A stretch of 64,000 bases of DNA from Halarchaeum grantii (GTDB taxonomy: Archaea > Halobacteriota > Halobacteria > Halobacteriales > Halobacteriaceae), in NCBI RefSeq assembly GCF_014647455.2, contig NZ_BMPF01000001.1, forward strand, positions 496,001-560,000, written 5' to 3'. Positions 11,394 through 32,972 of this stretch are shown here, piece by piece. The stretch's first letter is position 1, and each line of letters starts with the position of its first letter. Made by a program: the position numbers and the translations under genes. Under the pieces are notes generated by a model. It was not told the DNA's origin. It saw nothing but the letters and a program-made list of their open reading frames with translations, and made no database searches.

Positions 11394-11420
11394 GCGAGCG
11401 GGGAGGGACGACCCGCGAGT
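11394..11420 (-). repeat. Dispersed GC-rich repeat, copy A
   Basis: Read on the minus strand this is ACTCGCGGGTCGTCCCTCCC followed by CGCTCGC. At least 25 consecutive bases are identical to 32947-32972, and nearly as many to 25910-25935. It lies in a 380-bp spacer with no convincing gene. Confidence 0.85.
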
Positions 11421-15459: not shown

Positions 15460-15514
15460 TCGCGGCGCCCTTCGGTTACCGCGTTACTCGCGGGTCGCTC
15501 CCGCTCCCCGCTCG
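15460..15514 (+). repeat. Dispersed GC-rich repeat, copy D
   Basis: The sequence TCGCGGCGCCCTTCGGTTAC, then CGCGTTACTCGCGGGTCG, recurs at 32921-32958 with one difference. It continues into a CTCCCCGCTCG end like copies A, B and C. Confidence 0.85.
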
Positions 15515-25449: not shown

Positions 25450-26064
25450 TCAGCCCGAGAGCGCGCGGAGGCGCTCGAACGCCTCGCGCTCGCGCGGCCC
25501 GCCACAGCGCTCGCAGACCGACTCGAAGTAGTCGAGGCGCTCGCGGAGCACCTCGGTGTCGTAACCCGGGACATCGAGACGCGACGCCGCCACCGTCGCC
25601 TCGATCACCGCCGCGTACCCCCGGTTCGTCGTCGGCACCGCCTCGCGCACCACGCGCGATTCGACCGGCGAGAGCGCCCACGTCGCGACCCGCGTCCCCT
25701 CGCGCTCCTCGACGCCCGTCCGCTCGACGTCCACGCGCGCCCACGCCGCCGCCCCCGGGAGGACGGGTTCCTCGCGCTCGACCACGGAGAGCGCCGCCTC
25801 GACGAACGTCACGGCGTCGTCCACGAACTGGACGTACCCCCCGCCGCGCTCACGGAAGTTCCGCCACGTCCGCGTCCGCCCGAACGTCCGCGCGGTGGCC
25901 GGCGCGGTGCTCGCGGGTCGTCCCTCCCCGCTCGCTCTGTCTGCGCCTTCACTTCGCTCAGGCGCATGGACCCCCAGCGCGGCGAGGTTCCACAGCCCGT
26001 TCGGCCCCCGGGTCGTCACCACCGTCTCGGTCACGCCGCGCAGGGGGGTCGGCCACTCGCTCAC
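25450..26064 (-). CDS. DUF447 family flavoprotein-like protein with repeat-derived insertion
   Basis: A 204-residue protein starting at GTG 26064 (VSEWPTPLRGVTETVVTTRG). DUF447 proteins bind flavin in structures. The N-terminal beta barrel contains LRGVTETVV and RTFGRTRTWRNFRERGGGYV (residues about 59-78); C-terminal Cys pair CERCGGPRERE. Residues about 35-54 (PERSEGADRASGEGRPASTA) are foreign-looking: the DNA encoding them includes the dispersed repeat found in intergenic spacers. The start overlaps the CitG-like stop (GTGA), so it is the last gene of the cofD operon. Confidence 0.85.
   Translation of the reverse strand: MSEWPTPLRGVTETVVTTRGPNGLWNLAALGVHAPERSEGADRASGEGRPASTAPATARTFGRTRTWRNFRERGGGYVQFVDDAVTFVEAALSVVEREEPVLPGAAAWARVDVERTGVEEREGTRVATWALSPVESRVVREAVPTTNRGYAAVIEATVAASRLDVPGYDTEVLRERLDYFESVCERCGGPREREAFERLRALSG
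25910..25935 (+). repeat. Dispersed GC-rich repeat, copy C (inside a CDS)
   Basis: CTCGCGGGTCGTCCCTCCCC followed by GCTCGC, essentially identical to copies A and B over 25-26 bases. On the coding (minus) strand it encodes residues about 44-52 of the DUF447 protein. A small inverted repeat GCGCCT/AGGCGC (about 25945-25967) lies just beside it and may be part of the inserted unit. Confidence 0.88.
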
Positions 26065-32889: not shown

Positions 32890-32915
32890 ACTCGCGGATC
32901 GTTCCTCTCCGCTCG
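32890..32915 (+). repeat. Dispersed GC-rich repeat, diverged copy B2
   Basis: ACTCGCGGATCGTTCCTCTC then CGCTCG: a version of the repeat with three changes, 57 bp before copy B in the birA-pccA spacer. Confidence 0.75.
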
Positions 32916-32920
32916 TGGTG

Positions 32921-32972
32921 TCGCGGCGCCCTTCGGTTGCCGCGTTACTCGCGGGTCGTCCCTCCCCGCTCG
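32921..32972 (+). repeat. Dispersed GC-rich repeat, copy B
   Basis: Starts TCGCGGCGCCCTTCGGTTGC (as copy D at 15460) and ends with ACTCGCGGGTCGTCCCTCCC then CGCTCG (as copies A and C). It fills most of the 172-bp gap between pccA and birA. Confidence 0.88.

Follow-up and report, generated by a model that had tools for sequence, protein, structure and literature searches.

A palindromic haloarchaeal repeat in spacers and, in frame, in the DUF447 gene of Halarchaeum grantii

Introduction

The Rickettsia palindromic elements (RPE) of Ogata et al. (2000, 2002) are described in PMC10969869 as palindromic repeats of about 150 bp that occur between genes and also in frame within unrelated housekeeping proteins. 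The GTAG- or CGTC-tagged REPs of bacteria are palindromes of 20–40 bp that lie mostly behind genes and can supply stop codons, and some copies are found within open reading frames, including those of repair and RNA-binding genes (PMC3733652). From haloarchaea, PMC3119063 describes the MITEs, SMRs and PATEs of Haloquadratum, short repeats without a transposase that are about 80 bp or longer (about 110 bp for SMR-A) and have either terminal inverted repeats or IS605-like palindromes close to their termini. Mini-hairpins of the d(GCGNAGC) type, which are exceptionally stable in DNA, are known from biophysical work (PMC4686876 and works cited there).

The present study concerns a repeat of Halarchaeum grantii that lies in spacers and inside a gene for a DUF447 protein. 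An earlier note, comparing this repeat with RPE, had proposed that a mobile or amplified non-coding unit entered the gene without breaking the reading frame.

Results

The DNA analysed, referred to here as the window, was a stretch of 64,000 nt at positions 496,001–560,000 of the forward strand of contig NZ_BMPF01000001.1 from H. grantii (GCF_014647455.2). The GC content of the window was 71% and the size of the genome 3.02 Mb. The DUF447 coding sequence at 25450..26064 of the minus strand specifies 204 aa, matches Pfam families DUF447_N and DUF447_C, and begins with a GTG that overlaps the stop of the upstream gene. On the minus strand between 25450 and 27720, the gene so overlapped is CitG-like (weak NCBIfam matches) and adjoins an MJ0144-like gene of the dihydrouridine-synthase type, all NCBIfam matches being below cut-offs.

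The repeat within DUF447 was a 25-mer box, CGAGCGGGGAGGGACGACCCGCGAG, at 25910..25934 of the minus strand, from which DUF447 is read; the forward strand reads CTCGCGGGTCGTCCCTCCCCGCTCG. This box forms a hairpin with a GNA triloop, in which a 5-bp helix is flanked on either side by a tandem GA/GA mismatch. A second hairpin, TGCGCCT-GAGCGAAGTGA-AGGCGCA, with a stem of 7 bp, lies upstream of the box at 25942..25966 (minus strand), and its left arm extends into the native codons CAYGCGCC. Copies of a 26-bp repeat had been reported from three spacers of the window, and all three were recovered. Thus, identical 25-mers were found at 11395..11419 (plus strand; sense, 28 nt after a stop codon and behind a 10-bp hairpin) and at 32948..32972 (minus strand; sense, 26 nt after a stop codon), and a variant with a longer apical helix, CGAGCGGGGAGCGGGAGCGACCCGCGAG, at 15487..15514 (minus strand, 38 nt after a stop codon). 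A further, diverged copy with 3 mismatches, at 32891..32915 of the minus strand, was arranged in tandem with the copy at 32948–32972. The chance expectation for the 26-mer with up to 3 mismatches was 0.00 in the window. The assignment of residues 44–52 to the repeat proved exact, as these are the residues encoded by the 25-mer. The extra segment of the protein, placed in the earlier note at about residues 35–54, was present, but its limits were refined to residues 36–53 (ERSEGADRASGEGRPAST; 25906..25959, minus strand), a net gain of 54 bp relative to same-genus orthologues; this segment also includes part of the second hairpin, which had gone unmentioned. The 26-bp repeat is not the whole unit, which is a composite of two hairpins.

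A complete unit, with a total length of about 55–65 bp, joins an upstream perfect hairpin of variable stem sequence, across a linker of about 6 nt, to the conserved box CGARCGGGGAGGNACGACCCGYGAG, itself a hairpin. This architecture was assessed in 107 distinct copies, drawn from genomes within the family and elsewhere among the haloarchaea. The pattern of the box was C-GA-RCGGG-GA-G-GNA-C-GA-CCCGY-GA-G, corresponding to an outer C-G, tandem GA, a 5-bp helix, tandem GA, G-C and a GNA triloop. In alignments that included flanking sequence, nearly all upstream hairpins ended 4–8 nt before the box. A perfect stem of at least 6 bp within 48 nt upstream was present in 72% of the 107 copies as opposed to 11% of shuffles, and one of 7 bp in 60% as opposed to 3%. 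These stems were diverse, with 55 different ones among 73. Box positions 4 and 22 covaried (G-C in 78 copies, A-T in 16, G-T in 9 and A-C in 4; Fisher p 1.5e-9, a value that is only indicative since the copies are related). The excess of G-T over A-C fits pairing on the gene-sense strand, without separating RNA from DNA. The only other freely varying position was 13, the N of the GNA; almost all of the rest were fixed, and nearly all of 53 copies had the ends CGA(G/A) and (C/T)GAG.

The same two-hairpin fold was predicted by ViennaRNA for all six copies tested. Among 80 loops of the upstream hairpin, 10 were GNA triloops and 23 were of the form GA-XC-GNA-GX'-GA, with pairing of X and X' possible in 21 of the latter. 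No enrichment of GNA-triloop hairpins was noted across the window as a whole, indicating that this loop grammar is specific to the units rather than to hairpins generally. That the GA pairs are sheared is inferred by reference to known tandem GA motifs. None of the Rfam 15 covariance models matched the units at E values up to 1; the only matches were one to a neighbouring tRNA and two weak ones far below gathering scores. The possibility that the right arm of the upstream hairpin arises in every case by new inverted copying of native sequence was considered and dropped as a general rule, since it holds for DUF447 and Bud32 and fails for DapF, where the complete hairpin, GCGGCAACCGAAGGGCGCCGC, also occurs in spacers, and has no clear fit in UvrC.

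A pattern search of the whole genome with the 25-mer, as the earlier note had proposed, revealed 21 copies when up to 3 mismatches were allowed, including 8 exact matches, and these were mapped to genes and spacers; the reversed pattern, used as a control, gave 0 matches in the genome at the same tolerance. Of 242 genomes sampled from the class, 83, representing 34 of 74 genera, contained the exact degenerate box. It was absent from all of approximately 312 genomes taken from the phylum beyond the order, and the viral contigs searched likewise contained no copy. A looser pattern, CGAGCGG-N-CCGCGAG, was abandoned as too weak (99 matches observed, 48 in the control). Sixteen or 17 of the 18 intergenic copies in H. 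grantii, depending on how locus L010 is called, followed a gene on the same strand by 18–106 nt from the stop codon, which the hairpin often abutted. The remaining three copies were inside genes, all in sense orientation, namely DUF447, DapF and a Kae1-Bud32 fusion. A universal rule of sense copies 3' of genes fails in Halobacterium, where many copies were antisense to both neighbours or lay between divergent genes, as judged from rough gene calls based on a simple codon model.

Arrays of three to four tandem boxes at regular spacing were seen in unrelated genomes, with intervals of 54 bp in L238 (G014:C1:413138-413324), 63 bp in L257 (G177:C1:1131393-1131543) and 45 bp in L266 (G074:C1:1819477-1819636). 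At another locus (L086:1385-1675, genome G022), two units stand about 150 bp apart, the first directly downstream of a tRNA gene and the second preceded by a similar, tRNA-end-like sequence; this layout suggests a link between units and tRNA 3' ends. Units of two Halobacterium species (L074 and L076) share a further upstream motif, CGCGTTTAGTGGTTGCGGAGAGC.

Alignment of DUF447 proteins indicated that the loop containing the insert is 28 aa long in H. grantii as opposed to 10 aa in same-genus orthologues (L024, L031, L036 and L043), and the segment was absent from most of 111 orthologues in the order, as judged by match span. The missing segment in the same genus supports the proposal that an amplified non-coding unit entered this gene in frame. 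A related unit (GAACGAGCGAGCGGCGANGC...CGCGAG), longer in one case, was present at the same position in four Halobacterium species and lacking in other Halobacterium DUF447 genes, while other long loops in the order were unrelated, acidic stretches of low complexity. The loop is thus permissive: either units have entered it repeatedly, or a single old unit has been retained in some lineages and lost in others. An AlphaFold model of the protein (28 sequences) had a mean pLDDT of 87, with values below 50 only at model residues 40–51, between two beta strands, so that the insert is predicted to be the only disordered loop. Alignment with a solved relative, 2IML (E 1.4e-13), left a gap of 12 residues opposite the insert.

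In-frame entry was also supported by the same unit in two more genes of the H. grantii genome. In DapF (L007; G000:C2:169683-170657), the H. grantii sequence is FVDIAATEGRRETASGEGRPASDGQDTT...DDGVRATMTL as compared with FLDIRDGGERATMTL or similar in three congeners (G003, G004 and G005), in which the site is cleanly empty. This DapF insert exceeds 100 nt and consists of one intact unit followed by what is apparently decayed unit sequence. In the Kae1-Bud32 fusion (L011:1193-2926; G000:C1:916903-918636), where the insert derived from the repeat measures about 45 aa, units lie in a loop between RNARV and YLIDFGL, a position flanked by the HGD and DFG catalytic segments. Box-like units were found in this loop in H. 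grantii (G000), G006, G008, G010 and G016, and the loop was short or empty in at least 8 genomes; in at least four genomes besides H. grantii it holds different units. Outside H. grantii, UvrC of G018 contains a net insert of 51 bp, comprising hairpin and box, that is lacking in G013, although the two proteins are 92% identical over their length. By eye, the DapF and UvrC junctions showed neither shared terminal repeats nor obvious duplication, but substitutions have blurred them.

Further sense, in-frame copies were noted in other haloarchaea in genes for a PF01877 RNA-binding protein (L073), a NirDL-like protein (L088), chlorite dismutase-ABM in two genomes (L250, L252) and DUF7089 (L260); the comparison with empty orthologues covers DUF447, DapF, Kae1-Bud32 and UvrC and not these four. 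Coding copies were sense in all eight gene families, even though the antisense strand of the box is also free of stops. The frame used was ASGEGRPAS/ASGEERPA in six of the eight families, RAGRHDPRA/RAGSDDPRV in two and the third frame in none. This sample is small, was found by pattern and is not exhaustive.

Discussion

Like RPE, the haloarchaeal unit forms hairpins, has copies in spacers and lies in frame within conserved proteins (DUF447, DapF, Kae1-Bud32 and UvrC) whose orthologues may be empty; the RPE length of about 150 bp is not matched. In contrast with RPE of the AT-rich Rickettsia genomes, the unit is GC-rich, archaeal and composed of two successive hairpins. The comparison drawn in the earlier note holds for behavior, while homology is not shown and bacterial REPs are the closer parallel. 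Units resemble the latter in their location behind genes, their palindromic form and their occasional presence in open reading frames, but differ in the fixed tandem-GA/GNA design of the box and its pairing with a second, variable hairpin; no link to a RAYT was apparent. No GTAG or CGTC tag was seen among 53 copies, nearly all of which had the box ends given above, and the units are not, by this measure, tagged REPs. The elements of Haloquadratum are likewise short haloarchaeal repeats without a transposase, but the accessible part of their description includes no such hairpin box and no in-frame protein inserts (PMC3119063). Both unit hairpins end in a GNA triloop that caps G-C pairs, a feature shared with d(GCGNAGC), which is an in vitro biophysical motif and not a genomic element. 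Hairpins near transcript 3' ends in another haloarchaeon, Haloferax volcanii, are a structural class without the repeated sequence of the unit (PMC7237163), and a connection between the two, resting on analogy, is a hypothesis only. The unit is thus an archaeal repeat with REP- and RPE-like behavior, a different structure, no tag and no matching transposase. No earlier description of it, or of in-frame palindromic repeats in archaeal proteins, was found in open-access full text.

We consider it quite probable that a composite palindromic haloarchaeal repeat accounts for the DUF447 feature, one copy having entered a surface loop in frame. The architecture, covariation and amplification of the unit, its placement behind stop codons in H. 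grantii and its in-frame insertion relative to empty orthologues were observed directly, whereas the mode of movement and the role of intergenic copies are inferred. Chance convergence on the same letters, through codon usage rich in GC and acidic loops of low complexity, might be entertained in a window of 71% GC, given that DUF447 loops of other haloarchaea do lengthen by unrelated stretches of this kind, but can be dismissed almost entirely: the 25-mer is identical in 7 other copies with none in the control, the upstream hairpin stands at a fixed spacing and identical DNA is read in two different frames. Copy number and two-hairpin architecture refute it. It is also quite improbable that the segment in DUF447 represents an adaptive loop, retained for its peptide with the DNA match secondary, since the peptide differs by lineage (PERSEGADRASGEGRPAS versus PAGAERASGEARESRAAP), is modelled as disordered and is missing from most orthologues; in favor of such a loop, some Halobacterium DUF447 genes carry a unit at the same place.

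Two further explanations concern the nature of the units. That they are REP-type elements moved in trans by an IS200/IS605-like (Y1) transposase would agree with the location, palindromic form and occasional ORF insertion that units have in common with REPs (PMC3733652). Y1_Tnp is encoded in 17 of 26 genomes of the family but is absent from 9, among several unit-bearing genomes without it being G019 with 9 copies, and the units lack a GTAG or CGTC tag. The Y1_Tnp frames are, moreover, mostly 126–156 aa, which we take to be the ordinary size of TnpA. Dependence on a Y1 transposase is unsupported, as Y1 genes do not track units in the 26 genomes, and we regard it as improbable. A stronger case, still on balance unlikely, can be made that the units are solely functional 3'UTR structures (terminators or stability elements) kept by selection, with coding copies arising by rare recombination or gene conversion and without mobility of their own. 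Copies in H. grantii are sense and close to stop codons, covariation indicates a folded strand, and hairpins precede transcript ends in Haloferax volcanii (PMC7237163). However, the recurrence of units in the same coding loops across several genomes, the tandem arrays and the antisense or upstream copies of Halobacterium look like spread rather than 3'-end selection alone.

For the favored reading, a composite repeat inserted in frame, the units may have spread as short DNA copies, either through transposition by an unidentified enzyme or through template switching and repair aided by unusually stable single-stranded hairpins. Intergenic copies would probably serve as 3' end or stability elements of transcripts, an inference made without transcript-end data, and coding copies might persist where the polar, stop-free peptide (frame ASGEGRPAS or RAGRHDPRA) lands in a tolerant turn. 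Against the full explanation, neither a target-site duplication nor an enzyme was found, the placement behind genes in sense orientation does not extend to Halobacterium, and the term mobile, as used in the earlier note, remains an inference. The order of insertion and loss at the Bud32 and DUF447 hot spots is not resolved, nor is the choice between a mobile hairpin with a single-stranded stage and a functional 3'UTR structure copied by recombination; the main finding is common to both.

By analogy with what has been reported for Rickettsia, these results show a non-coding repeat turned into protein sequence in archaea. Among the recipients are enzymes of core metabolism (DapF) and of tRNA modification (Kae1-Bud32), and because congeners are empty at the DapF site, the effect of such an insert on a housekeeping enzyme is testable by simple deletion in a model haloarchaeon. 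The grammar of tandem GA and GNA triloop provides a precise pattern with which spacers of haloarchaea can be annotated, as well as a possible link to transcript 3' ends that can be tested. More tentatively, and with rather less than even confidence, the units may represent a hitherto unrecognised class of haloarchaeal mobile hairpin DNA, built of tandem-GA helices and GNA triloops, that spreads through a single-stranded form and, by repeated in-frame insertion into turns of housekeeping proteins, would be a lasting source of new loops.
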